Positions 8,452 through 21,502 of a stretch of DNA of 21,502 nucleotides are shown piece after piece. The position numbers and the translations under genes are program-made. The stretch lies in assembly GCA_008501735.1 (NCBI GenBank), contig QQUF01000013.1, forward strand, positions 1-21,502, in the 5' to 3' direction. The notes beneath the pieces were generated by a model, which was not told the origin of the DNA, made no database searches, and saw only the letters and a list, made by a program, of their open reading frames with translations. The stretch comes from Calditrichota bacterium (GTDB taxonomy: Bacteria > CLD3). How positions within the stretch are numbered: position 1 is the stretch's first letter; the number at the start of each line of letters is the position of its first letter.

Positions 8452-10248
8452 TTACAGTTCAATTTTCAGAAGTTCAAATTGATTATCGAAACCTTTAATT
8501 TCAGTTGACAAATCTTTAGTTTGATGATGTGTTTTTTTGAGCCAATTTGAAACTTCAATGTCTTCACTCACTTCTTTTGAAACTACAACATCATCACCTT
8601 CTGAAAAATTTACAAGACGAGCAGCGATGTTTACTGTACTTCCGAAGTAATCTATTTTTTCATTCAAAGTTACTGCCAAACAATGACCTGAATGAATTCC
8701 AGCTTTAAGTTTCAAACCACTTTCTTCAAGTTTTTCATCTGCCATAATTAAAGCATCAACAGCTTGAATTGGTCTTGCAAAAGTTGCCATAACTGCATCA
8801 CCGATAGTTTTTACAATCGCTCCATTGTTTGCATCAATTGCTTTTTTTAAAATTTCAAAATGAGTTAGAACTTTTCCAAAAGCAGGAGCATCTCCAATTT
8901 CGTAATACATTCTTGTTGATTGAACCAAGTCTGTAAAAAGAATGGTTAAGTTTCCAACCGAAACATGCATTTCGGGTTTTAGAACTTCATCTGAGAACAA
9001 ATCTTTAAACTTTTGAAGTAGAAAAACTTCCATTGCTGTTGTCGAATAATCTTTCCAAGCAGCTCTTTCTAAAATGAAAAGTTGCTCAGTTTTAGTTGAG
9101 TTTTTAAATTTCATTTTTGGGTAAGTAGAAATCAAATTTTCTCCGCTACTCCAACCCTCTTCAGTGAGTTCAAAAGTTGATTCAAGTTCTGCAACTGGGT
9201 CAGAATTTATCAACTTAAAACCTTTAGTCGTTAAAGTTCTAATTCTGTATCGTCCTTTTTCTAAAATTGGAGAAATTTCAATTTCTTCGTTTGGTTGAAG
9301 TAAATTTTGAGCAATAAAATGTGGCGTTAAGTGAGGTCCACCGACGCAGTATTCATTTTCTTTAACTTTTCTAATTAATTGATTCGGCTTAAAAGTAATC
9401 TCAACTGAATTTTCAAAATTAGCCTCAAAATCAATATTACAAGCATCACAGTGAACTTCCTTGTCAATTTCATACAAAGATAATTTTGACTGTTTCGCAC
9501 CTTTGCAAGATGGACAAAGTAAATTCCACTGAAAATCCAATAATCCAATTCGAGTTGCTTCAAGACAAGCCTCCAAAACTTCTTTTTTGTTAAGTTCCCA
9601 TTTTGCAGCAATAAAATATGGTTGTATTTTTGAAGCAAAAATTTCGTCTGAATTTGTCAAAACATTTGTTAAGACTTCTACAATTTTTGGATTTTTAAGT
9701 CGCTTTGCTAAAACTTCTTCTAAAGACTTTAACCTTTTTCTCCCACCTTTGACAAACTCTACTTTTGCTTTTTGCTCAAAAATCTCTTCGTTTTCAAACG
9801 CAATTTTATCGTAACGTCTGAAAATTTTATCAAAATTGATTTTACTTAAAACACCTATTTGGAATGGAATTGCTGCAACTCCCAAAATATCCTTTGGAGT
9901 CGCCCAAACTTTGTATTCTAAGAATGTTCCTGTTCCTTTAGGAATTAAATCTGCAATTACTTTTAATTGTTTTACAGGTCCTGAAGAATAATTTCTTACT
10001 ACACTAAATCGTTTTGGAAATGTCCATTCAAATGGCTCTTGAATGTATTTTAGTTTGATTCCAAAAACGATAATTTCTAAAGGCATTCTATAATTTTGAA
10101 ATTCGTTTTCATCTTTTTCCAAATATTTTATTGGAGGCAAACCAGAATCGCGATCAAATCTATTTGTATCAGAAACTAAGTGCCAAAGTTTTTCAGGCGG
10201 AGTTTTTAAGTCCCAAGTCCATTTGTATTCAAAAATTGGTAAAGGCAT
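8452..10248 (-). CDS. Class III adenylate cyclase with SRPBCC-like N-terminus and zinc-ribbon-like module
   Basis: A 598-residue cytoplasmic protein with no signal peptide or membrane segment. Residues 1-150 look like an SRPBCC/START-type ligand pocket (start FEYKWTWDLKTPPEKLWHLVSD). A central region has two Cys pairs, C245-P-S-C248 and C267-D-A-C270, consistent with a zinc ribbon; the region as a whole resembles the DUF5939 segment found before cyclase domains. The cyclase domain (about 430-590) is complete: metal ligands D440 (LFTDLVQST) and D484 (TIGDAVMATF), adenine-specifying K480 and D533 (DYFG), and transition-state N540 and R544 (VNIAARL). The Lys/Asp pair indicates ATP as substrate, so the likely product is cAMP. 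The N-terminal pocket could sense a small hydrophobic ligand. It is convergent with the GNAT gene, 9 bp apart. Confidence 0.9.
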   Translation of the reverse strand: MPLPIFEYKWTWDLKTPPEKLWHLVSDTNRFDRDSGLPPIKYLEKDENEFQNYRMPLEIIVFGIKLKYIQEPFEWTFPKRFSVVRNYSSGPVKQLKVIADLIPKGTGTFLEYKVWATPKDILGVAAIPFQIGVLSKINFDKIFRRYDKIAFENEEIFEQKAKVEFVKGGRKRLKSLEEVLAKRLKNPKIVEVLTNVLTNSDEIFASKIQPYFIAAKWELNKKEVLEACLEATRIGLLDFQWNLLCPSCKGAKQSKLSLYEIDKEVHCDACNIDFEANFENSVEITFKPNQLIRKVKENEYCVGGPHLTPHFIAQNLLQPNEEIEISPILEKGRYRIRTLTTKGFKLINSDPVAELESTFELTEEGWSSGENLISTYPKMKFKNSTKTEQLFILERAAWKDYSTTAMEVFLLQKFKDLFSDEVLKPEMHVSVGNLTILFTDLVQSTRMYYEIGDAPAFGKVLTHFEILKKAIDANNGAIVKTIGDAVMATFARPIQAVDALIMADEKLEESGLKLKAGIHSGHCLAVTLNEKIDYFGSTVNIAARLVNFSEGDDVVVSKEVSEDIEVSNWLKKTHHQTKDLSTEIKGFDNQFELLKIEL

Positions 10249-10574
10249 TTTCTAATTCTTTTTAAGTTTTATAAATCGGTTTAAGTAAAAAGTTTCCTTT
10301 AGGATAACGACAAAACTCTAAATTTATTTTAAAAATTTCTTACATTAAGCAATGCTGTTCAAGTCAAAAGTTGATTTTGTAATATCGTTTTTCAAAATTT
10401 ACCCCTAATGAGAAAACCTACAAAGAAAATTTTATATAACAAAAGTAATAACTTTTGTTATCCTTGTTTCTTTGGGCAATTAATTATTAGCTCTGCCAAA
10501 GAACTAAAACCTCAGCATTTAACTTTAAAAGATTTGAAGTTACAAGAAAATTAAACACTAAACAGAGGAAAATA
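10249..10574. other. 326-bp intergenic region with two inverted repeats
   Basis: The region lies between the divergent starts of the cyclase (minus) and the first S74 fibre gene (plus), so promoters for both should be here; I cannot place either one. It contains a perfect 11-bp inverted repeat (10436-10446/10451-10461) and a second 8-bp one (10468-10475/10496-10503). A 48-codon open frame runs from ATG 10408 to TAA 10554, but it has no ribosome binding site and no recognisable family. A GAGG precedes the ATG at 10575. Confidence 0.6.
10436..10461. repeat. Perfect inverted repeat (hairpin or operator)
   Basis: ATAACAAAAGT (10436-10446) is exactly complementary to ACTTTTGTTAT (10451-10461) with a 4-nt AATA loop. 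It lacks a following T-run and has a weak AT stem, so it is more like a protein-binding palindrome or a leader hairpin than a terminator. It lies 114 bp before the first S74 fibre gene. Confidence 0.6.
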
Positions 10575-11867
10575 ATGTTCAACAGAAAAATAAAAAACAC
10601 CTTGCAAGTTTCATTAATCTTAGCATTAGCAATGACATTTGGAAATGCCTTTGCACAAACCAACAATGAATTTTTAGGTACAAATGCTGGAAATAGTATT
10701 ACTACTGGTAACAACAATGTTGCTATCGGAGATGAAGCAGGAAAGAAACTAAAAACTGGTTCTGACAATACTTTTTTGGGTACTAATTCAGGTCGTGACC
10801 AAGCCACTAAATCTGGCAATGTGTTTATGGGATATTCAATAGGTGCATCAAATCAAACTGCTGATAGTCTTACATTAATTGGTTATGGCATTTCTCAAGG
10901 AGTAAGTAACAACACTTTAATAGGACAGTTAGCTGGAGTTGGACAATCTGGAAGAGACAATGTAAGTGCTGGTTCATATGCAGGTTGGATTAATAACGGA
11001 AGTAAAAATACTTGTGTAGGAAATTCTGCGGGACTTCTTAATTCGTTTGGTAATGATAATGTTTATTTAGGCTATCAAGCTAATAGCTCTAATTCGCATT
11101 TTATTGAAAATGTTTCAATTGGTTCACAATCTAGTATTGATGGAAGTTTTTCTATTTCTATTGGTAAAGATGCAGATATTGTAGAGAAAAATTCTGTAAG
11201 TATTGGCCAGAATGCAGATATTTCAAAAGAAAGTTCCATAAGTATTGGAAATTCTACCATAGTTTCTGATACAAATTCTATTTCAATTGGTAATGGCACT
11301 ATTGTTAATTCAAAAAATTCTGTTGTTATAGGAAACTTTTCAACTATTTCAATTGGTGGAATTGTAAATTGGAGTACGACTTCTGACGGAAGATTCAAAA
11401 CAAATGTTAGAGAAAATATTATTGGTCTTGATTTCATAAATCGGTTAAGACCTGTTTCTTATAATTATCAAATTGAAAAATTAGAAAAATTTTATGGAAA
11501 AGAGATTCCTGAATCCTTAAAGAATTCAAGTAGAGAAAAAGAGAAAATCCGATACTCAGGGTTTATTGCTCAAGAAGTCGAAAAAATTAAAAATGAATTA
11601 AATTTTGATTTTAGTGGAGTTGACACCCCACAAAATAAAAATAGCCAAGTTTATGGATTGCGTTATTCGGAATTTGTTGTGCCTTTGGTAAAAGCAGTGC
11701 AAGAATTAAGTAAAAAAGTAGAATCACAAAATGAAGAAATTTCTATTTTAAAAGAGAAACAAAAAATTATTTCACCTGAAAATACTCTACTTCAAGAAAT
11801 TCAAAAAAAACTCATCAAACTGAAAGACGATTCCAATCAATCTTTATCAAACCAAATTGATTCTTAG
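10575..11867 (+). CDS. Secreted fibre-like protein with beta-roll repeats and Peptidase S74 chaperone domain, paralogue 1
   Basis: A 430-residue protein with a Sec signal peptide (1-27, cleavage FA|QTNNE). The head has about nine 17-residue repeats of the form N-T/V-F/A-L/I-G-x3-G (e.g. NTFLGTNSG), then five 14-residue repeats (SISIGKDADIVEKN type) like YadA/Hep_Hag head repeats. The linker GIVNWSTTSDGRFK leads into a Peptidase S74 intramolecular chaperone domain, with the S-x4-K dyad at S270/K275, then GLDFINRLRPVSY, GFIAQEVE and YGLRYSEFVVPLVKA. Residues about 370-425 are a coiled coil. In phage tail spikes this domain trimerises, folds the upstream fibre and cuts itself off. There is no YadA anchor and no T9SS domain. 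First gene of a four-gene unit; an SD-like GAGG precedes the ATG. Confidence 0.88.
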   Translation: MFNRKIKNTLQVSLILALAMTFGNAFAQTNNEFLGTNAGNSITTGNNNVAIGDEAGKKLKTGSDNTFLGTNSGRDQATKSGNVFMGYSIGASNQTADSLTLIGYGISQGVSNNTLIGQLAGVGQSGRDNVSAGSYAGWINNGSKNTCVGNSAGLLNSFGNDNVYLGYQANSSNSHFIENVSIGSQSSIDGSFSISIGKDADIVEKNSVSIGQNADISKESSISIGNSTIVSDTNSISIGNGTIVNSKNSVVIGNFSTISIGGIVNWSTTSDGRFKTNVRENIIGLDFINRLRPVSYNYQIEKLEKFYGKEIPESLKNSSREKEKIRYSGFIAQEVEKIKNELNFDFSGVDTPQNKNSQVYGLRYSEFVVPLVKAVQELSKKVESQNEEISILKEKQKIISPENTLLQEIQKKLIKLKDDSNQSLSNQIDS

Positions 11868-11930
11868 ATTGGTTTAATAATTAAACTATAAAGACAAAAT
11901 TGACAATAATTTTAAGGAAAAAGCAAACAA

Positions 11931-13241
11931 ATGAATAAATTTTTAAACTCTTCAACATTTTTTTCAATCTTTTTAACAATATCTTTCTCAAATGTTATTC
12001 TTGGACAAACAAATAATGAGAGTTTAGGAAACCAAGCTGGTTCAAGCATTACAAATGGAGACAATAACGTTCTTATTGGTGATAATGCTGGAGAAGAATT
12101 GACAACTGGAAGTAACAATACATTTCTCGGTAGAAATGCAGGTTTGAACCAAAAAACAGTTTCTGACAATGTGTTTGTTGGCAAAGATTCTGGAAAAAAT
12201 AATAATAGCGGAGGAGGACTTACTTTTGTTGGAACTGAATCTGGCAAATCGAACACAACAGGAGATGGGAACACATTTGTTGGTTATAAATCAGGATTCA
12301 GTAACCTTTCAAGTGGTAAAAATACCTTTTTAGGAACTTCCACTGGTTATTCTAACATTGCAGAATACAATACTTTTGTAGGCTCAGGAGCTGGATATTT
12401 TAATACTTCCGGTGAACATAATGTCTATATTGGATTTCAATCTAGTTGGCTAACATCAATAGACAGTAATAATACAGCTATTGGTTCTCAATCAGATATT
12501 GTTGGAAGCAATTCAGTTTGTATTGGGTTTACTTCTAAAGTTTTCGGAAGCAATAATGTTAGTATCGGACATCTTGCTGATGTTTCAAGTTCAAATTCGA
12601 TAAGTATTGGTGCTTCATCTCAAGTAACTGGTTCAAATTCTATTGGAATTGGATATGGAACAAAAGTAACGGCTGCCAATTCAGTTTACATCGGAAACAC
12701 TTCAATGACTTCCATAAGTGGCATTGTAAATTGGACTGCAACCTCCGACGGTAGATTCAAAACCAATGTTAAAGAAAATATTAAAGGACTCGATTTCATT
12801 AACAAACTAAGACCTGTTTCTTACAATTACAAAACTGAAAAAATTGAAAAGTTTTATGGAAAAGAGATTCCTGAATCCTTAAAGAATTCAAGTAGAGAAA
12901 AAGATGAAATCCGTTATTCTGGGTTTATCGCTCAAGAAGTTGAAAAAATTGCAAAAGAATTGAATTTTGATTTTAGTGGAGTTGATGCTCCTCAAGACAA
13001 AGATAGTCAAATTTACGGAATCCGTTATGCCGAATTTGTAGTTCCTTTAGTAAAAGCTGTGCAAGAATTGAGCAAAACTGTAGAATCTCAAAATGAAGAA
13101 ATTTCTAATCTGAAACTGCAACAAAAAATCATTTTAGCACAAAATGAACTTATTAAAGAACTCGAAAGAAAACTTATAAAGTTAGAAGAAGATTCAAAAG
13201 ACTCTATTACTCCCCTTTACAAACTCATTTCCAAAAATTAA
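11931..13241 (+). CDS. Secreted fibre-like protein with beta-roll repeats and Peptidase S74 chaperone domain, paralogue 2
   Basis: A 436-residue paralogue of the preceding gene, 63 bp downstream with no terminator between. Signal peptide 1-25 (cleavage LG|QTNNE). The head has about nine 17-residue repeats (e.g. NTFVGYKSGFSNLSSGK) followed by five 14-residue repeats (SISIGASSQVTGSN type). The S74 domain starts at TATSDGRFK with dyad S272/K277, and the GLDFINKLRPVSY, GFIAQEVE and YGIRYAEFVVPLVKA blocks are intact. A coiled coil follows (about 370-430). A 53-bp stretch is identical to paralogue 1 and a 65-bp stretch is identical to paralogue 3, so the C-terminal domains have been homogenised or recently duplicated. 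An AAGGA lies about 13 nt before the ATG. The likely role is a homo- or heterotrimeric surface fibre; the ligand is unknown. Confidence 0.88.
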   Translation: MNKFLNSSTFFSIFLTISFSNVILGQTNNESLGNQAGSSITNGDNNVLIGDNAGEELTTGSNNTFLGRNAGLNQKTVSDNVFVGKDSGKNNNSGGGLTFVGTESGKSNTTGDGNTFVGYKSGFSNLSSGKNTFLGTSTGYSNIAEYNTFVGSGAGYFNTSGEHNVYIGFQSSWLTSIDSNNTAIGSQSDIVGSNSVCIGFTSKVFGSNNVSIGHLADVSSSNSISIGASSQVTGSNSIGIGYGTKVTAANSVYIGNTSMTSISGIVNWTATSDGRFKTNVKENIKGLDFINKLRPVSYNYKTEKIEKFYGKEIPESLKNSSREKDEIRYSGFIAQEVEKIAKELNFDFSGVDAPQDKDSQIYGIRYAEFVVPLVKAVQELSKTVESQNEEISNLKLQQKIILAQNELIKELERKLIKLEEDSKDSITPLYKLISKN

Positions 13242-13282
13242 CAAATTTGTATTTTTTAAATCAAAGCATAGGAAGTTACCAA

Positions 13283-15202
13283 ATGAATCAAATTTCAAAA
13301 TTAATTACTCAAGCAATAACAATAACTTTAATGTCATATAGTGCTTCTTTGGCACAAACAAACAATGAATTTCTAGGAACAGCATCTGGTACTGGAATCG
13401 GCTCAGGTGACAATAATGTTGCTATTGGTGACTCTTCAGGAACGCAATTATCAAATGGTTCAGACAACACATTTTTAGGTGCAAGTTCTGGGAGACACAC
13501 ATTAGGTGGTAACAAAAACACTTTTTTAGGATATTCTGCTGGATATAAAAATAGTAGCGGATTCCAAAATACTTTTATTGGCTATTATTCTGGGTTTGAA
13601 AATACTGCTAATTTCAACACGTTTGTCGGTTATCAATCAGGAAAAAGTAATACTACAGGATATGACAATACTTATTTTGGCTATTCTTCTGGCAGTAGTA
13701 ATAAAAGTGGCCAAGAAAATACTTTTATTGGAAGTTTATCTGGAAAAGCAAACACTAGTGGGAACCAAAATGTTTTTGTTGGTTTTCAATCTGGAATCAA
13801 GAATAAGGGAGGTTATTTTAATACATTTAATGGCTCTAATTCAGGATCCGAAAACACATCAGGTTTTAGAAATGTATTTATCGGAGTTGAATCTGGACAC
13901 GAAAACACTTCAGGCTTTAGAAATGTATTTATCGGAAATCAATCTGGATTTGAGAATACTACAGGTTATCAAAATACTGCTATTGGAAGTAGAGCTGCTT
14001 ATGATTTAAATACCAACCATAACAATGTATCAATTGGTGACTCGGCAGGTTATGACAACAGTTTAGGAAACTATAACACATTAATTGGATCAAGTGCTGG
14101 TGCTAAAATTGAGAAAGCTGATTTTAATACAATGATTGGTGCTTATGCAGGATACAACACAAACTCTGATGATGCTTTCAGTTATGGAAATAGTAATACT
14201 TTTATTGGTTTTCAAACTGGTAAAAAAAATGTTACTGGTTCGGATAATGTAGGAATTGGTAAAGGTGCAAATATGACATCAGAATATCGCAGTAGAGCAA
14301 CTTTTATTGGTACAAATACAAGTATTTCTAATGATGATGCTGTAGCAATTGGTTATTCTGCAATTGCAAATGGAACAAATGCAACAAGTATCGGTTCGGA
14401 ATCTTCTTCAGTTGGAAATAATTCTGTAAGCCTTGGTAAAGATGCAGATATTACTGCAAACAATGCAATCAGTATCGGTTTTAATGCTGATATTACTGGG
14501 AACAAATCTATTAGCATAGGTGCAACTTCAAATATTTCAGGTATTAACTCAATCGGAATCGGTTACGGAACAACTGTTACGACCGACAATTCTGTTTACA
14601 TTGGAAATACTTCAATGACTTCAATTGGTGGAATTGTTAATTGGACTGCAACTTCTGATGGAAGATTCAAAACAAATGTGAAAGAAAACATTAAAGGACT
14701 TGAATTCATTAACAAACTAAGACCTGTTTCTTACACTTACCAAACTGAAAAATTAGAAAATTTTTATGGAAAAGAAATTCCTCAAACTCTTAGAGAAGCT
14801 AATTCTGATAAAGAAGAAATTCGATACACTGGATTCATTGCTCAAGAAGTGGAAAAGATTGCAAACGAGTTAGACTTTGACTTTAGCGGAGTTGATTCTC
14901 CCAAAGATAAAGAAAGCCAAATTTACGGAATCCGTTATGCCGAATTTGTAGTTCCTTTAGTAAAAGCTGTGCAAGAATTGAGTAAAAATTCGGAAACTCA
15001 AAATTCAATCATTCTTGCTCAAAAAGAGCAAATCGAAAGCCAAAATGAGAAAATCTCAAATTTAGAGATGCAACAAAAAATCATTTTAGCACAAAATGCA
15101 ATCATTGAAAAACTCGAAAGGAAACTTATCAATTTGGAAAAAAATTCAAAAAAACTAAAAAGTAATAATGCTCAACTCATTTCTATAAACCAAAGAGATT
15201 AA
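13283..15202 (+). CDS. Secreted fibre-like protein with extended beta-roll repeats and Peptidase S74 chaperone domain, paralogue 3
   Basis: The frame is open from a TTG at 13247, but ATG 13283 is chosen because AGGAAG sits 7 nt before it and it starts a standard signal peptide (1-24, cleavage LA|QTNNEFLG). The product has 639 residues. It differs from its two paralogues mainly in head length: about eighteen 17-residue repeats (e.g. NVFIGNQSGFENTTGYQ), one of them enlarged near residue 290, then seven 14-residue repeats. The S74 domain begins TATSDGRFK, dyad S458/K463, with all chaperone blocks present. The C-terminal coiled coil is longer (about 560-630) and contains the duplicated phrase LAQKEQIESQNEKISNLE. 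It ends 3 nt before the T9SS propeller gene, which strongly suggests co-translation. Confidence 0.88.
   Translation: MNQISKLITQAITITLMSYSASLAQTNNEFLGTASGTGIGSGDNNVAIGDSSGTQLSNGSDNTFLGASSGRHTLGGNKNTFLGYSAGYKNSSGFQNTFIGYYSGFENTANFNTFVGYQSGKSNTTGYDNTYFGYSSGSSNKSGQENTFIGSLSGKANTSGNQNVFVGFQSGIKNKGGYFNTFNGSNSGSENTSGFRNVFIGVESGHENTSGFRNVFIGNQSGFENTTGYQNTAIGSRAAYDLNTNHNNVSIGDSAGYDNSLGNYNTLIGSSAGAKIEKADFNTMIGAYAGYNTNSDDAFSYGNSNTFIGFQTGKKNVTGSDNVGIGKGANMTSEYRSRATFIGTNTSISNDDAVAIGYSAIANGTNATSIGSESSSVGNNSVSLGKDADITANNAISIGFNADITGNKSISIGATSNISGINSIGIGYGTTVTTDNSVYIGNTSMTSIGGIVNWTATSDGRFKTNVKENIKGLEFINKLRPVSYTYQTEKLENFYGKEIPQTLREANSDKEEIRYTGFIAQEVEKIANELDFDFSGVDSPKDKESQIYGIRYAEFVVPLVKAVQELSKNSETQNSIILAQKEQIESQNEKISNLEMQQKIILAQNAIIEKLERKLINLEKNSKKLKSNNAQLISINQRD
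13850..13951 (+). repeat. Two near-identical 51-bp tandem units in the head of paralogue 3
   Basis: Units 13850-13900 and 13901-13951 match at 43 of 51 bases, and each encodes one 17-residue head repeat (ENTSGFRNVFIG...). The similarity at base level points to recent growth of the head by unit duplication. Confidence 0.8.
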
Positions 15203-15205
15203 CAA

Positions 15206-18187
15206 ATGAAAAAAACTTCGACATTAATACTTACAATAGCATTTGCATTTATTTCTCAATTAAGTTTTGGGCAAGTTTATAAAGCTGAATCTCAAATCAA
15301 AGCAAACACAACAACTGCGAGTTTTCAAACTGCTCCAAAAATCGCAATGAACCGATTTAATAATTTTGTAGTTGTTTGGGAAAGCGAAGGAAATGATGGT
15401 GATGGTTTTGGAATTTATGGAAAAATTTATTCTAATAAATCAATTCCAATAACTTCTGAATTTTTAGTGAATACAACAACTTCCGGCAACCAAGTTTCTC
15501 CGTCAGTTGCAAGACGACAGCTTGGAAAATTCGTTGTTACTTGGATGAGCGAAAATCAAGATGGAAGTGGTTGGGGAGTTTATGCTCAAGTTTACCATAA
15601 TTCAGGAAGCAAACAAGGTTCGGAATTTCTTGTCAATACATCTACAACAGGACATCAAAGAAATCCTGTTGTTGCAATGGACGACTCAGGAAGTTTTGTA
15701 ATTGCTTGGCAAGAAGTTGCTTTAGACGGTTCTTCATTTTCCATAAAAGGCAAACATTACGATAAAGACAATAATTTAACCGTTGATGAATTTCAGATTA
15801 ACACTTCGTCTTCAAGTTTTCTCGGTTATCCTGCGATTGCAATTGAAGATGACGGAGCTTACGTTGTAGTTTGGCAAAGTTTGGGAACTGATGGCTCTGG
15901 ACACGGAATTTATGGGCAAAGATTCAATAACGCAAGTGTCAAGCAAGGAAGCGAATTTTTGATAAACACAACAACAGCAGGAAATCAAACTTCACCTTCA
16001 GTCGATATGGCTACAAACGGAGACTTTGTAGTTTCTTGGACAAGTTCTGGTCAAGATGGCGACCAAGGTGGAATTTATGCAAAAAGATTTTTGAGTAATG
16101 GCACAGCAAATGGAAGTGAATTTCAAGTTTCAACAACAACTGCTGGAAATCAAGACAACTCACAAATTTCGGTAAACCTTGATGCTGATTTCACAATTGC
16201 TTGGGATTCCTATGGACAAGACGGAAGTTTTACAGGAGTTTATTTACAATCTTATAACAGCGACGGAACTACAAATGGAAATGAAACTCCAATAAATGGA
16301 AGCAAAAACAATTTTCAACAAAAAGTTTCTGTTGCACAATACCAAAATTCAAAAGCTCTAATCGCCGTTTGGCAAGATGGATTAAATAACTCAACTGCTA
16401 CTCTTGACGGTGAAGATTACGGAATTTATTTTCAAAGATTTAGAACTTCTGCAACATCTGGAGGAACTGAATATGCTTTGGAATTTGACGGAGACAATGA
16501 CCGAGTAAAAGTTGATGGCTACAAAGGAATCATTGGAACTGATGCTCGGTCTGGTGAAGCTTGGATAAAAACAGGAACTTCGTCAGGAATAATTGTAGCT
16601 TGGGGATTAAATAGTTCAGATAATAGATGGCTTTTAAGAATATGTCAAAATAATGGATTAGTTGGAGCTTTGGAATTAAATGTATATGGAAGTTACATCG
16701 TTGGTTCAACGGTTGTTACTGACAACAAATGGCATCACGTTGCTTTTACTTTTGAAAATGACGGAACTCCAAGAATTGAAGATGCAAAACTTTATGTAGA
16801 TGGAGAATTAGAAGTAATTTCAACTACAAACGCAAGTGCAGTTGACTTTTCAACAGTTAGCAATGATGATTTAAAAATAGGAAAAGGTTTTTCAGGCGAT
16901 ACTTTTAATGGAATGATTGATGAATTTAGGCTTTGGAGTGATGTTAGAACACAAAGTGAAATTAGAGAGAATATGAACAAAATCCTAAATGGAGACGAAT
17001 TTAACCTAGAACTTTACTATCGTTTCAATAACTCAACAGGTTCAATTCTTACTGACATTTCTCCAAATGGTAGAAATGCTTCATTAGTAAATATGGCAAA
17101 TGATGATTGGGTTGTTTCTTCAATTCCTTTGGGCGAAACGTCGGAAACAGTAAACTACAATGCCCAAACAAATATTGGCGATTCAGGAAAACAGATGAAA
17201 GTTAGAATTACTTCAACTCCTGACGCTTCAAATTTCCTAAATGTTTATAAATCAGGTGAAGGAAACGATGTAGTAAACAGTGGTGAAAATTTCCCTGCTG
17301 GAGTTTTACAACGTTCAAATATTTTATGGGGAATTAAAGAATTCGGCGATGTAACAACAGATTTAGAATTCGATTACAATAGCATTGTTGGAGCAGAGAA
17401 TCCTGCAACGCTAAAAGTCCTCAAACGCTCTACTCCAACTGATGATTGGACAGACGTTACAAGCGACTTCACAAATGACACGAATGCAAAAACATTTTCT
17501 GGAACAGGATTTACAACTTTTTCACAGTTTTCAATCGGTGGTGGAGAAGACAATCCACTTCCTGTTTCTTTGAATTCATTCTCTGCGGAAGGGTTTGAAA
17601 AAGCAATTTTATTAAATTGGTCAACTGAAAGTGAAGTAGAGAACAAAGGTTTCATTCTCGAAAGAAAAAATGAAAACTCCGAAGAAATTTGGAGAGAAAT
17701 TGCTTCTTACAAATCTCACAAGTCTTTAAAAGGGCAAGAATTTTCTTCATCTGAAACAAAGTATTCATTTGCAGACAGTTCAGTAACTTTTGGGCAAATT
17801 TATGAATACAGAATTTCAGATGAGAGTTTAACAGGTGAAGTAACAATTCATTCAGAAACTGTAACAGCAAGTTTGAGGCAAATTGGAGAAATTGAAAATA
17901 ATTTGCCAAAAGAATTTTCAGTTTCTCCTGCTTACCCAAATCCATTTAACCCGACAACAACAATTTCTTACGCATTGCCGAAAGACACAAAAGTCTCAAT
18001 TGTTATTTACAATATTTTAGGCAAAGAAATTAGAACTTTAGTCAACGGTTCTAAATCAGCTGGATTTTACAATGCTCAGTGGAATGGACTAAACAATCAA
18101 GGTACTTTTGTTGGAACAGGAGTTTACTTTGTGAAAGTTGAAGCAGGAATTTTTTCTAAAGTAATTAAACTGACAATGCTAAAGTAA
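15206..18187 (+). CDS. T9SS-secreted protein with seven propeller-like repeats and LamG-like domain
   Basis: A 993-residue exported protein. Signal peptide 1-22 (cleavage FG|QVYK). Residues about 30-410 hold seven repeats of 50-60 residues. Each has a [FY]-V-V-x-W core strand (FVVVWES, FVVTWMS, FVIAWQE, YVVVWQS, FVVSWTS, FTIAWDS, LIAVWQD) followed by QDGSGxGIYxQ and EFxVNTTTxGNQ, which suggests a seven-bladed propeller. Residues about 420-610 resemble a LamG/concanavalin-like sandwich (YALEFDGDNDRV, WHHVAFTFENDG, MIDEFRLWSDVRT). An FN3-like segment (LPVSLNSFSAEGFEKA..., about 788-890) precedes the type A sorting domain (about 905-993: AYPNPFNPTTTISYALP ... GTGVYFVKVE ... KLTMLK). It is the last gene of the S74 fibre unit, 3 nt after paralogue 3, so it may bind or display those fibres. 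The LamG-like domain suggests glycan or matrix binding. Confidence 0.88.
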   Translation: MKKTSTLILTIAFAFISQLSFGQVYKAESQIKANTTTASFQTAPKIAMNRFNNFVVVWESEGNDGDGFGIYGKIYSNKSIPITSEFLVNTTTSGNQVSPSVARRQLGKFVVTWMSENQDGSGWGVYAQVYHNSGSKQGSEFLVNTSTTGHQRNPVVAMDDSGSFVIAWQEVALDGSSFSIKGKHYDKDNNLTVDEFQINTSSSSFLGYPAIAIEDDGAYVVVWQSLGTDGSGHGIYGQRFNNASVKQGSEFLINTTTAGNQTSPSVDMATNGDFVVSWTSSGQDGDQGGIYAKRFLSNGTANGSEFQVSTTTAGNQDNSQISVNLDADFTIAWDSYGQDGSFTGVYLQSYNSDGTTNGNETPINGSKNNFQQKVSVAQYQNSKALIAVWQDGLNNSTATLDGEDYGIYFQRFRTSATSGGTEYALEFDGDNDRVKVDGYKGIIGTDARSGEAWIKTGTSSGIIVAWGLNSSDNRWLLRICQNNGLVGALELNVYGSYIVGSTVVTDNKWHHVAFTFENDGTPRIEDAKLYVDGELEVISTTNASAVDFSTVSNDDLKIGKGFSGDTFNGMIDEFRLWSDVRTQSEIRENMNKILNGDEFNLELYYRFNNSTGSILTDISPNGRNASLVNMANDDWVVSSIPLGETSETVNYNAQTNIGDSGKQMKVRITSTPDASNFLNVYKSGEGNDVVNSGENFPAGVLQRSNILWGIKEFGDVTTDLEFDYNSIVGAENPATLKVLKRSTPTDDWTDVTSDFTNDTNAKTFSGTGFTTFSQFSIGGGEDNPLPVSLNSFSAEGFEKAILLNWSTESEVENKGFILERKNENSEEIWREIASYKSHKSLKGQEFSSSETKYSFADSSVTFGQIYEYRISDESLTGEVTIHSETVTASLRQIGEIENNLPKEFSVSPAYPNPFNPTTTISYALPKDTKVSIVIYNILGKEIRTLVNGSKSAGFYNAQWNGLNNQGTFVGTGVYFVKVEAGIFSKVIKLTMLK

Positions 18188-18316: not shown

Positions 18317-20569
18317 ATGAAGCATTTTATTAAAATTCACTTGTCCGCTTTAGTTCTTAGTTTAATCACCTTAACTAATTGTTTCGCAGAATACGAAGAA
18401 AAAATTGTCGCAGCTGATGCAGCTAATTCTGACCTATTTGGTGGGTCAGTTTCTATTAGTGGAGATTATGCAATTATTGGGGCTAGACAAGATGATGATA
18501 CTGCAAGTGCTTCTGGCTCAGCTTATATTTTTATAAGGAGCGGAGCTTCGTGGACTCAACAAGCAAAACTAAATGCAAGTGATCCTGTAGCAAGTCATCT
18601 ATTTGGTGGATCAGTTTCTATTAGTGGAGATTATGCAATAGTTGGAGCAATTGGCGACAACACAGAAGGTTCTCAAGCTGGTGCTGCTTATATTTTTGTA
18701 AGAAGCGGAACTTCGTGGACACAACAAGCTAAGCTTACTGCAAGTGATGCGGCAGCACAAGATTTTTTTGGTCATTCAGTTTCCATTAGTGGAGATTATG
18801 CAATAATTGGAGCTTATTCTGATGATGATGACGGAGCTTTGTCTGGTTCAGCTTACATTTTCGTAAGAAGTGGAACTTCGTGGAATCAGCAAGCAAAGTT
18901 AAATGCAAGTGATAATGCATCACTTAAGTATTTTGGATATTCAGTTGCAATTGATGGTGAATATGCAGCTATTGGAGCTTATTTAGATAACGCAGGTGAC
19001 GAAACAGGCTCAGCTTATATTTTTAAAAGAAGTGGAACTTCATGGGCACAACAAGCAAAAATAACTGCAAGTGATGCGGCGACTGGAGATAGATTTGGTC
19101 GTTCAATCTCTATTAGTGGTGATTATGTAATTGTTGGAGCTGATAGAGATGATGACGGAGATTCTGGTACAGGTTCAGCTTACATTTTTAACAGAAGTGG
19201 AACTTCATGGACACAGCAAGCAAAAATAAATGCAAGTGATGCAGCTACAGACGACGAATTTGGTTCATCAGTTTCAATTAGTGAAGATTATGCCGTTGTC
19301 GGAACTTACCAAGATGATGATGCAGGATTTAGTTCAGGTTCAGCTTATGTTTTTAAAAGAAGTGGTACTTCTTGGACACAGCAAACTAAATTAACTTCTG
19401 ACGACGGAGCAGCAGGTGATGATTTTGGATTTTCAGTTGCAATCAATGGAAATTATATAATCTCAGGAACTCCTGACCAAGGAGGATTTGCTAATCCTAC
19501 TGGTGCAGCTTACATTTATGGGAATCTACCAATTGTAAATGCTGATGTTACTCAAACTGTAGATTCAAATACAACTTTCAGTTTTAATGACGGAACAAAC
19601 GAAGATACAGGAATTAATATTAATTTCACTGGAGTTTCAAACTCTGCTACTATTCAATGCCAATCTTACGTTGAAACACCAGCAGACACTGCCGGAATTG
19701 GTGCAACTGTTCAACCTATTCGTTGGGTAATTACTGATGGAGGTTTGACTTTTACAAATGCTGAAATTAGAATCGACCTATCGGCTTTACCTTTTACTCT
19801 TGATTTTCCATATAACGCTGCAATTTTCCACAGACCAACTGAAGGAAGTGGAACATTTACACAACTCGCTACAACTTTAGATGGAGATACTTTAGTTGCA
19901 CACACAAATAGTTTCAGTGAATTTACAATTGTTGGAGGTGATGGAAGTTTACCTGTTGAACTAACAAGTTTTGAAGCTGAGTCTGTTTCAAATGGAATAA
20001 AACTTTTGTGGAGAACTGAAACTGAGACAAACAATCTTGGATTCAAGATTTATCGTTCTACTTCTGAAAAAGGTGATTTCCAAACTATTGCTTCTCACTC
20101 AGCTGATGAAAATCTTCGTGGGCAAATCAATTCTACTTTCTCGACAAATTACAATTGGACTGACACAGAAGTTGAGACTAGTAAAAAATACTTCTACTAC
20201 ATTGCTGACATTAATTTAGACGGAATGGAAACTACTCACAAAGACAAAATAGTTTCGGTAACTACAAACTTAGTTGAACAAACAGAAGTTGTTGAACTAT
20301 TCATTTTAGCTCAAAACTTCCCGAATCCTTTTAACCCAAGCACTACGATTAATTACGAATTTAGAATTGCGAATTACGAATCAGGGAAACTTGCAATTTT
20401 TAATGTAAGCGGTGAGAAAGTCAAAGAATTTGAACTTACAGATGAAAAAGGTTCGGTTGTTTGGGACGGAACTGACAGTTTTGGAAAATCCGTTTCAAGT
20501 GGAACTTACTTCTACAAACTTACTTCTGGGGCTTTCACCAAAACTAACAAAATGATTTTATTGAAATAA
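18317..20569 (+). CDS. T9SS-secreted FG-GAP repeat protein
   Basis: A 750-residue exported protein. Signal peptide 1-24 (cleavage CFA|EYEE; the Cys is not in a good lipobox). Seven FG-GAP repeats of 54-55 residues start at F41, F96, F151, F206, F260, F315 and F370, each reading FGxSVSISGDYAIVGA followed by an Asp-rich loop (e.g. DDDDGA, DRDDDGDSG) and GSAYIFxRSGTSWTQQAK. Seven copies match the integrin-alpha-type propeller, and the Asp loops are likely calcium sites. A beta-rich segment (about 403-545) and an FN3-like segment (LPVELTSFEAESVSNG..., about 547-650) precede a type A sorting domain (about 665-750: NFPNPFNPSTT ... GTYFYKLTS ... KMILLK). The sorting domain contains an unusual NYEFRIANYE stretch. 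An AGGA precedes the ATG. Probably transcribed alone between two terminators. Likely adhesive. Confidence 0.9.
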   Translation: MKHFIKIHLSALVLSLITLTNCFAEYEEKIVAADAANSDLFGGSVSISGDYAIIGARQDDDTASASGSAYIFIRSGASWTQQAKLNASDPVASHLFGGSVSISGDYAIVGAIGDNTEGSQAGAAYIFVRSGTSWTQQAKLTASDAAAQDFFGHSVSISGDYAIIGAYSDDDDGALSGSAYIFVRSGTSWNQQAKLNASDNASLKYFGYSVAIDGEYAAIGAYLDNAGDETGSAYIFKRSGTSWAQQAKITASDAATGDRFGRSISISGDYVIVGADRDDDGDSGTGSAYIFNRSGTSWTQQAKINASDAATDDEFGSSVSISEDYAVVGTYQDDDAGFSSGSAYVFKRSGTSWTQQTKLTSDDGAAGDDFGFSVAINGNYIISGTPDQGGFANPTGAAYIYGNLPIVNADVTQTVDSNTTFSFNDGTNEDTGININFTGVSNSATIQCQSYVETPADTAGIGATVQPIRWVITDGGLTFTNAEIRIDLSALPFTLDFPYNAAIFHRPTEGSGTFTQLATTLDGDTLVAHTNSFSEFTIVGGDGSLPVELTSFEAESVSNGIKLLWRTETETNNLGFKIYRSTSEKGDFQTIASHSADENLRGQINSTFSTNYNWTDTEVETSKKYFYYIADINLDGMETTHKDKIVSVTTNLVEQTEVVELFILAQNFPNPFNPSTTINYEFRIANYESGKLAIFNVSGEKVKEFELTDEKGSVVWDGTDSFGKSVSSGTYFYKLTSGAFTKTNKMILLK
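18437..19522 (+). repeat. Seven tandem ~165-bp units encoding FG-GAP repeats
   Basis: Unit spacing is 165 bp except one of 162 bp. Strings such as CAGTTTCTATTAGTGGAGA recur in units 1 and 2 exactly, and the GGAACTTCGTGGA region recurs in several units, so similarity is visible in the DNA as well as the protein. Confidence 0.85.
20351..20385 (+). repeat. AATTACG-type heptanucleotide tract inside the T9SS sorting domain
   Basis: Five consecutive 7-nt units: AATTACG, AATTTAG, AATTGCG, AATTACG, AATCAGG. They are read in frame as NYEFRIANYESG, close to the NYELRIT heptapeptide that a perfect (AATTACG)n array encodes. Confidence 0.7.
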
Positions 20570-20619: not shown

Positions 20620-20653
20620 AAAAGCCTAACAATTAATTTTGTTAGGCTTTTTT
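20620..20653 (+). terminator. Rho-independent terminator of the FG-GAP gene
   Basis: A perfect 13-bp stem, AAAAGCCTAACAA (20620-20632) with TTGTTAGGCTTTT (20639-20651), loop TTAATT, followed by further T. One base differs from the terminator arms at 18208-18239. Confidence 0.9.
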
Positions 20654-20712: not shown

Positions 20713-21502
20713 ATGACTTACGAGTTTATTTCAAAAATTGCATCAGGAACTTTCGGAACAGTTTACAAAGTAAAGAAATCAACTAATGGTGATTTCTATG
20801 CACTAAAACTTATACACGAGAATTATAAGAATCCAAAAGAACTCAAACGAATTAAACGTGGTTTTGAATCTGCTCAAAAAGTTTCTCACCCAAATTGTGT
20901 AAAAATGATTGAATGGTTTGAAGATAAAAACGAAATCGGTTTTGTTATGGAATTTGTAGATTCCGTAGAGACGCAAAAACTTGCCTCTAGTAAAAAAAAT
21001 AATTCTGTTTTAGAGACACAAAATCTTGCGTCTCTAAAAGACAAAATCACTAAAATTATTCAAATTGCAAACGGATTAGAAGCACTTCATTCTCAAGGAA
21101 TTGTTCACAGAGATTTGAAACCTGCTAACATTCTTGAAACAAAAGATGGTCAAATAAAAATCACTGATTTTGACCTTATAAAAATTGATAATGCCTCGAC
21201 AATGACTGCAAGTGGTGATTTTCTTGGAACTTTAAAATATTCTTCACCTGAACAATGTAACAATTCAACTCAAATTGATTCTCGGTCAGACCTCTACTCT
21301 CTTGGAATTATTTTTTATGAATTGTTAACAGGAGTTTGTCCGATAAATGGCGAATCTCTTGGAGAAATTGCTCTCGCTCATTTACGTTCACCAATTATTT
21401 CTCCAAGACAAATCATTCCCGATTTACCTCCCAAAATTGAAAAAGTCGTTTTGAGGCTTTTAGAGAAAAACCCAAAAGATAGGTTTCAGAGTGCGAGTGA
21501 AG
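20713..21502 (+). CDS. Ser/Thr protein kinase (Hanks type), N-terminal part, truncated by window end
   Basis: Open from ATG 20713 to the window end without a stop: 263 codons of a eukaryotic-like protein kinase. Seen in order: a glycine loop ASGTFGTV (first Gly replaced by Ala), ATP-anchoring K32 (YALKL), a hinge MEFVD, the catalytic loop HRDLKPANIL with D134, a metal-binding DFD (152-154, in place of DFG), GTLKYSSPEQ, DLYSLGIIFYELLTG and the C-lobe arginine segment PKDRFQSA. All residues needed for catalysis are present. Between the hinge and helix D (about residues 84-107) is an insertion with the repeated octapeptide VETQKLAS / LETQNLAS, encoded by two copies of a palindromic DNA repeat. 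The kinase domain is nearly complete; what follows it, sensor or membrane segment, lies outside. It starts 59 bp after the terminator of the FG-GAP gene. Confidence 0.92.
   Translation, partial: MTYEFISKIASGTFGTVYKVKKSTNGDFYALKLIHENYKNPKELKRIKRGFESAQKVSHPNCVKMIEWFEDKNEIGFVMEFVDSVETQKLASSKKNNSVLETQNLASLKDKITKIIQIANGLEALHSQGIVHRDLKPANILETKDGQIKITDFDLIKIDNASTMTASGDFLGTLKYSSPEQCNNSTQIDSRSDLYSLGIIFYELLTGVCPINGESLGEIALAHLRSPIISPRQIIPDLPPKIEKVVLRLLEKNPKDRFQSASE
20965..20990. repeat. Degenerate copy of TAGAGACGCAA palindromic repeat
   Basis: GTAGAGACGCAA on the left and TTGCCTCTA on the right around a short A-rich loop; the right arm lacks the GT needed for a perfect palindrome. It is read in frame within the kinase gene. 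Confidence 0.65.
21011..21036. repeat. Second copy of TAGAGACGCAA palindromic repeat
   Basis: TAGAGACACAA (21011-21021) pairs with TTGCGTCTCTA (21026-21036) in 10 of 11 positions, with a 4-nt loop AATC. It starts 46 bp after the first copy starts, in the same orientation and coding frame. Confidence 0.75.

Follow-up and report, generated by a model that had tools for sequence, protein, structure and literature searches.

Three adjacent genes in the window analysed here, a stretch of 21,502 nucleotides that is exactly contig QQUF01000013.1 of a Calditrichota bacterium (GCA_008501735.1) and ends at position 21502, encode secreted proteins with an S74 domain. The question raised by this locus is whether such fibres belong to a phage or to the cell and, if to the cell, how they reach its surface. 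A preliminary description proposed that the three fibres could form an undescribed bacterial surface fibre system. The cellular assignment holds against a prophage origin, but the combination of a fibre with an S74 domain is not by itself undescribed because it is known from the MATs of Bdellovibrio (accessible text of PMC10769870) and because S74 domains were detected in 26 of the 32 surveyed genomes of one Bacteroidota order, with 1 to 11 copies in each. The new part is the gene at 15206-18187, whose product is a co-encoded partner with a sorting domain of the type IX secretion system (T9SS).

The fibre genes and the gene that follows them

The features of the window that bear on this question are the following.

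10575-11867, + strand: fibre 1, 430 aa; signal peptide 1-27, head 28-269, S74 domain from Ser270, coil from about residue 380
11382-11726, + strand: S74 domain of fibre 1, PF13884 and SDGRFK motif
11931-13241, + strand: fibre 2, 436 aa; signal peptide 1-25, head 26-271, S74 domain from Ser272, coil from about residue 382
12744-13088, + strand: S74 domain of fibre 2, PF13884 and SDGRFK motif
13283-15202, + strand: fibre 3, 639 aa; signal peptide 1-24, head 25-457, S74 domain from Ser458, coil 552-636
13355-14653, + strand: head of fibre 3; 17-residue beta rungs at about 29-346, then 14-residue YadA-type rungs at 354-440 (AlphaFold2)
14654-14998, + strand: S74 domain of fibre 3, PF13884 and SDGRFK motif
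15206-18187, + strand: T9SS partner, 993 aa; signal peptide, seven-bladed beta-propeller at about 24-416, Laminin_G_3 at 428-586, T9SS type A sorting domain at 910-988
17933-18169, + strand: T9SS type A C-terminal sorting domain (CTD) of the partner, TIGR04183 and PF18962 above their cut-offs
18317-20569, + strand: second T9SS protein, 750 aa; seven FG-GAP repeats and a type A sorting domain
20620-20651, + strand: terminator-like hairpin of 13 pairs with a T tail after the FG-GAP gene, a consensus match only

The three paralogous open reading frames were present with the lengths previously given (430, 436 and 639 residues), and the architecture claimed for them, a Sec signal followed by a head, an S74 domain and a coiled coil, was seen in all three. 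The open reading frame of fibre 3 spans 13247-15202; the ATG at 13283 yields 639 residues and a possible TTG at 13247 yields 651. Inspected by eye, the N-termini of fibres 1, 2 and 3 have a hydrophobic signal and then a Gln (..FA/QTNN, ..LG/QTNN and ..LA/QTNN, respectively), which fits the paper on the Q-rule of Bacteroidetes, and the signal of fibre 3 falls slightly below the threshold of a simple hydrophobicity test. A heptad-rich C-terminal tail follows the S74 domain in each fibre.

All three fibres scored above the curated cut-off of the Peptidase_S74 profile (PF13884; 40.4, 46.9 and 44.6 bits against a cut-off of 22, E-values from 4e-10 to 3e-12), which disposes of the possibility that they lack an S74 match. 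The SDGRFK motif starts at residues 270, 272 and 458 of fibres 1, 2 and 3, and is intact in all four copies of the fibre gene in the genome. It is established that S74 domains act as chaperones in trimer folding and are then cleaved at a serine (S782 of Bd3182; PMC10769870, accessible text), and the fibres would be expected to cleave themselves before Ser270, Ser272 and Ser458. When the four genomic copies were compared, the heads were 40-48% identical and the S74 domains 70-85% identical, the pattern of a variable fibre or shaft with a conserved chaperone. Fibres 1 and 2 have identical 23-base palindromic stretches inside their S74 domains (11508-11530 and 12870-12892), within a block of DNA of 84% identity that suggests a recent duplication or conversion.

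The fold of fibre 3 was predicted with AlphaFold2 as a single chain from a 16-sequence alignment (mean pLDDT of 71.7). In the model, beta rungs run from residue 29 to residue 440, S74 helices of low confidence occupy 473-530, and a single long helix spans 552-636. Residues 332-450 match the YadA-type heads 3s6l (Z of 15.3, rmsd of 1.9 over 113 residues, 30% identity) and 1p9h (Z of 13.2, rmsd of 1.9 over 108 residues). Similarity to the Pfam YadA-head and Hep_Hag profiles was weak and under the cut-off, but matches to solved heads were significant, both with a single sequence (3s6l and 1p9h, E of about 1e-6) and with a profile (BpaC, EibD and YadA, E from 5e-15 to 4e-12). YadA-type heads are trimers in solved structures. 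The single-chain model of fibre 3 thus predicts a fibrous fold and not a non-fibrous one. MyRF ICA (7dc3) and 3gud were only weak matches to its S74 part, and the S74 region alone had no significant match among PDB sequences. Matches of the N-terminal rungs to phi29 gp12 and to tailspikes were set aside as generic beta-helix similarity. Structural matches of the fibre in BFVD include proteins of giant viruses, namely an FhaB-like adhesin of Bodo saltans virus and S74 proteins of Pithovirus, Tupanvirus and Edafosvirus.

The partner gene begins 3 bp after fibre 3. Its product scores 35.9 bits with TIGR04183 against a cut-off of 23, and its propeller has structural matches with Z of up to 39. The preliminary description overlooked this co-encoded gene and was incomplete in that respect. 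Searches of Pfam and NCBIfam found no sorting domain (TIGR04183 or TIGR04131) on the three fibres of the window themselves. Contig 46 has a fourth fibre copy, which is flanked by housekeeping genes (ftsH and an RND pump) and followed after 3 bp by a paralogue of the partner that is 58% identical to it. The recurrence of the fibre, the 3-bp gap and the partner at this second locus indicates that the conserved unit is a fibre with a sorting-domain partner, not a set of three fibres. The FG-GAP (integrin-alpha-like) T9SS gene directly after the partner is missing from the second locus, and is possibly the last gene of the fibre and partner transcript. In a sigma-70 scan, promoter-like sites were no commoner than in shuffled sequence.

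The genome encodes the T9SS translocon protein SprA in one frame of 2293 residues (759 bits in total), and its PorP/SprF matches fall under the cut-off. More than 150 matches to the partner were detected in the same genome, nearly all limited to the sorting-domain end, a number that represents an unusually large set of type IX cargo.

Sorting domains fused to or beside S74 genes

A contig scan with a single fibre protein returned nothing, and a scan with the four-copy alignment returned 24 named Bacteroidota loci, whose best segments reached at most 44% identity. In the nearest group, the fibre gene was followed at 18-48 bp by a gene with a Sec signal in 11 of the 11 loci with a readable neighbour. 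The next genes examined in ten of these loci were of the adhesin type, with HYR, SprB or similar repeats, and each of the four adhesin-type genes with an intact 3' end (L026, L027, L034 and L029) encoded a sorting domain. At locus L035, the sorting domain is one gene further on, in the third gene. At four other loci a T9SS type A domain that passes the curated cut-off forms the end of the S74 protein itself.

This arrangement was surveyed in 32 genomes of one Bacteroidota order, centred on Acidiluteibacter. The survey covered nearly all S74 sites with enough flanking sequence; open reading frames were called by a mechanical procedure, and the profile used to detect sorting domains had been grown from seeds verified by NCBIfam or Pfam. 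Two loci were left out: L268, picked because L027 was already known, and L242, which looks like a split fused gene because its CTD frame lacks a signal peptide and the CTD is fused in L246, its near-twin. Eighteen S74 proteins carried their own T9SS sorting domain, and NCBIfam confirmed 16 of the 18 as type A. Of the 37 S74 genes that had a readable neighbour and lacked a CTD, 23 were directly followed by a CTD gene (against 22 of 413 for other genes as the background, p = 5e-17), and of the 18 with their own CTD none was (p = 4e-6); both p-values overstate independence because the surveyed genes share descent. The first count gave eight more S74 genes with a CTD two or three genes downstream. 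The upstream neighbour encoded a CTD in 6 of 25 cases, against the 23 of 37 downstream. By NCBIfam, the 24 sorting domains of next genes included 14 of type B and 11 of type A, some being both. All partners had their own signal peptide except in the split case of L242. The SDxxxK motif was retained in 37 of the 42 relatives linked to a partner and in 22 of the 24 with a fused CTD. An S74 tree, which is poorly resolved, has at least five changes between the fused and the adjacent states of the CTD. Outside Bacteroidota, a CTD neighbour was found beside none of seven S74 genes, and of the eight other genomes from the small phylum to which the present bacterium belongs, only two had S74, both times with no CTD neighbour.

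Loci L246 and L242, from two genomes, have near-identical S74 domains, with the CTD fused in the former and separate in the latter (S74 frame at 9794-11572, CTD frame downstream at 9400-9777 and lacking a signal peptide). The difference between them looks like a recent split or frameshift.

In some of the S74 operons, the S74 gene is followed in order by genes for a type B sorting-domain protein of about 245 aa, PorP/SprF (TIGR03519) and an OmpA/PorE-like protein. Genes of these kinds occur together with those for type B T9SS surface proteins (abstract of PMC9143113).

A possible route to the cell surface

From the domains, the gene order, the conserved pairing and the T9SS translocon gene, all observed directly, we infer trimerisation, self-cleavage, surface location, contact between fibre and partner, and dependence on T9SS. 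The fibres are probably self-processing trimeric surface adhesins whose export through, or anchoring at, the outer membrane depends on T9SS. Sec would carry each fibre across the inner membrane. Three chains could wind into a beta-solenoid and YadA-type shaft, with the S74 domain and the coiled coil serving as an intramolecular chaperone to nucleate the trimer. The S74 domain would then cut itself off before the serine of SDGRFK and free the mature shaft. A sorting domain, fused or on a partner, may bring the complex to SprA/PorV or hold it at the surface; this domain is fused behind S74 in many Bacteroidota and lies here on the propeller, LamG and CTD partner. That T9SS exports or anchors S74 trimers with a sorting signal supplied in trans by the co-encoded partner, and within one chain elsewhere, is a narrower proposal that we advance tentatively.

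It may instead be that the partner is merely another adhesin in the operon and that the fibres reach the surface by some other route, with no contact with the partner or with T9SS. Operons of unrelated adhesins are common, the window fibres lack a CTD, and S74 proteins outside Bacteroidota lack CTD neighbours, all of which would be expected if the two products were independent. The discussion of the MAT paper likewise names no export route in its accessible text (PMC10769870). Independence accounts poorly, however, for the 18 S74 proteins in which the CTD is fused and then never found in the next gene, for the mostly downstream position of separate CTDs, which is the order of the fused proteins, for the unrelated partner families that occupy the same slot, and for the presence of PorP/SprF inside some S74 operons. 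Mutual exclusion of fused and adjacent CTDs, together with the prevailing order, favours one functional unit that has been split rather than co-regulation alone, as far as gene arrangement can indicate, and we consider an unconnected partner unlikely.

Searches of the open-access literature found no case of T9SS export of a CTD-less protein by way of a partner, and no paper that links S74 fibres or the 'tail fiber domain' with T9SS. The fused-or-next-door rule offers a direct and testable answer to how S74 proteins cross the outer membrane in Bacteroidota and related phyla. A link between S74 and T9SS would give a role to many proteins annotated as 'tail fiber domain-containing', and at the present locus T9SS may export an oligomeric cargo that processes itself, with the sorting signal in trans.

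Phage fibres and other known systems

A rival reading is that the fibre genes are prophage remnants or moron genes, that is, tail fibres captured from a phage. PHROGs profiles label the fibres as tail spike or tail fibre (PHROG 4636 and 1980), and more than 400 viral relatives were found, the best with about 30% identity. Against a captured fibre stand the signal peptides, which a simple hydrophobicity test detected in 83 of 96 cellular S74 open reading frames but in only 2 of the 67 viral ones with a complete N-terminus (among 80 viral relatives). Virion structural genes are absent from both loci, as the preliminary description had noted for the window: no window frame other than the fibres matched phage structural PHROGs, and none of these genes was found at the second locus in contig 46. 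Phage genes flanking the fibres outside the window were considered as well; the contig ends with the window, and the second locus has none. Elsewhere the window carries cellular genes (aroB, glnA, nth, a CDF transporter and a cyclase, several of these names being read from the sequence by eye). The cyclase gene (8452-10248, - strand) encodes an adenylate/guanylate cyclase catalytic domain joined to DUF5939 and to an N-terminal region in which the eye sees some likeness to SRPBCC. In a FastTree analysis of 136 S74 domains, based on few columns, the 45 viral domains formed one side of a branch with support of 98, and the window fibres fell in a cellular group; of its 17 rows, all that are uncut have a CTD gene following. 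These observations largely refute a prophage origin, which we judge to be very improbable. An ancient exchange of S74 between phage and cell, in either direction, is possible.

Phage S74 tail spikes and fibres, such as endosialidase and the T5 L-shaped fibre, share with the proteins described here a beta-helical or beta-roll head followed by a self-cleaving S74 chaperone. They differ from them in that the present fibres have a signal peptide, belong to a cellular S74 clade and are not accompanied by virion genes. Bacterial S74 fibres with a Sec signal have already been described as the MAT family of Bdellovibrio, and the accessible text of that work (PMC10769870) gives the S74 subgroup (Bd3182) a Sec signal, a long trimeric beta-fibre and a C-terminal S74 domain with SDxxxK, as well as several paralogues with variable heads, traits also seen or predicted in the fibres of the window. 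The same text assigns MATs a conserved beta-rich domain of about 130 residues directly after the signal peptide, whereas in the model of fibre 3 the rungs begin at residue 29 with no separate domain, and the fibres are likened to MATs by description. No secretion partner is reported for MATs in that text, in contrast to the T9SS-tagged partner co-encoded here.

Trimeric autotransporter adhesins (YadA, BpaC, EibD and BoaA) share the 14-residue YadA-type head repeats and the same predicted fold, but a type Vc fibre with its YadA-like head carried by its own barrel is refuted by domain content and can hardly be credited, given that Pfam and NCBIfam searches found no YadA membrane anchor on the fibres and that their C-terminus consists of S74 and a helix.

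The T9SS adhesins SprB and RemA, with their PorP/SprF partners, resemble the present system in being encoded in adhesin operons with CTD proteins, and PorP/SprF and OmpA genes occur in relatives of the fibre locus. Unlike adhesins of the SprB/RemA type, the window fibre has no CTD, which is carried by the product of the next gene. Loci L024-L034 in Flavobacteriales have a recurring gene set upstream of S74, judged by eye to include a possibly membrane or TPR protein of about 660 aa and an SGNH/AlgX-like protein, and this set may modify or supply a surface glycan.
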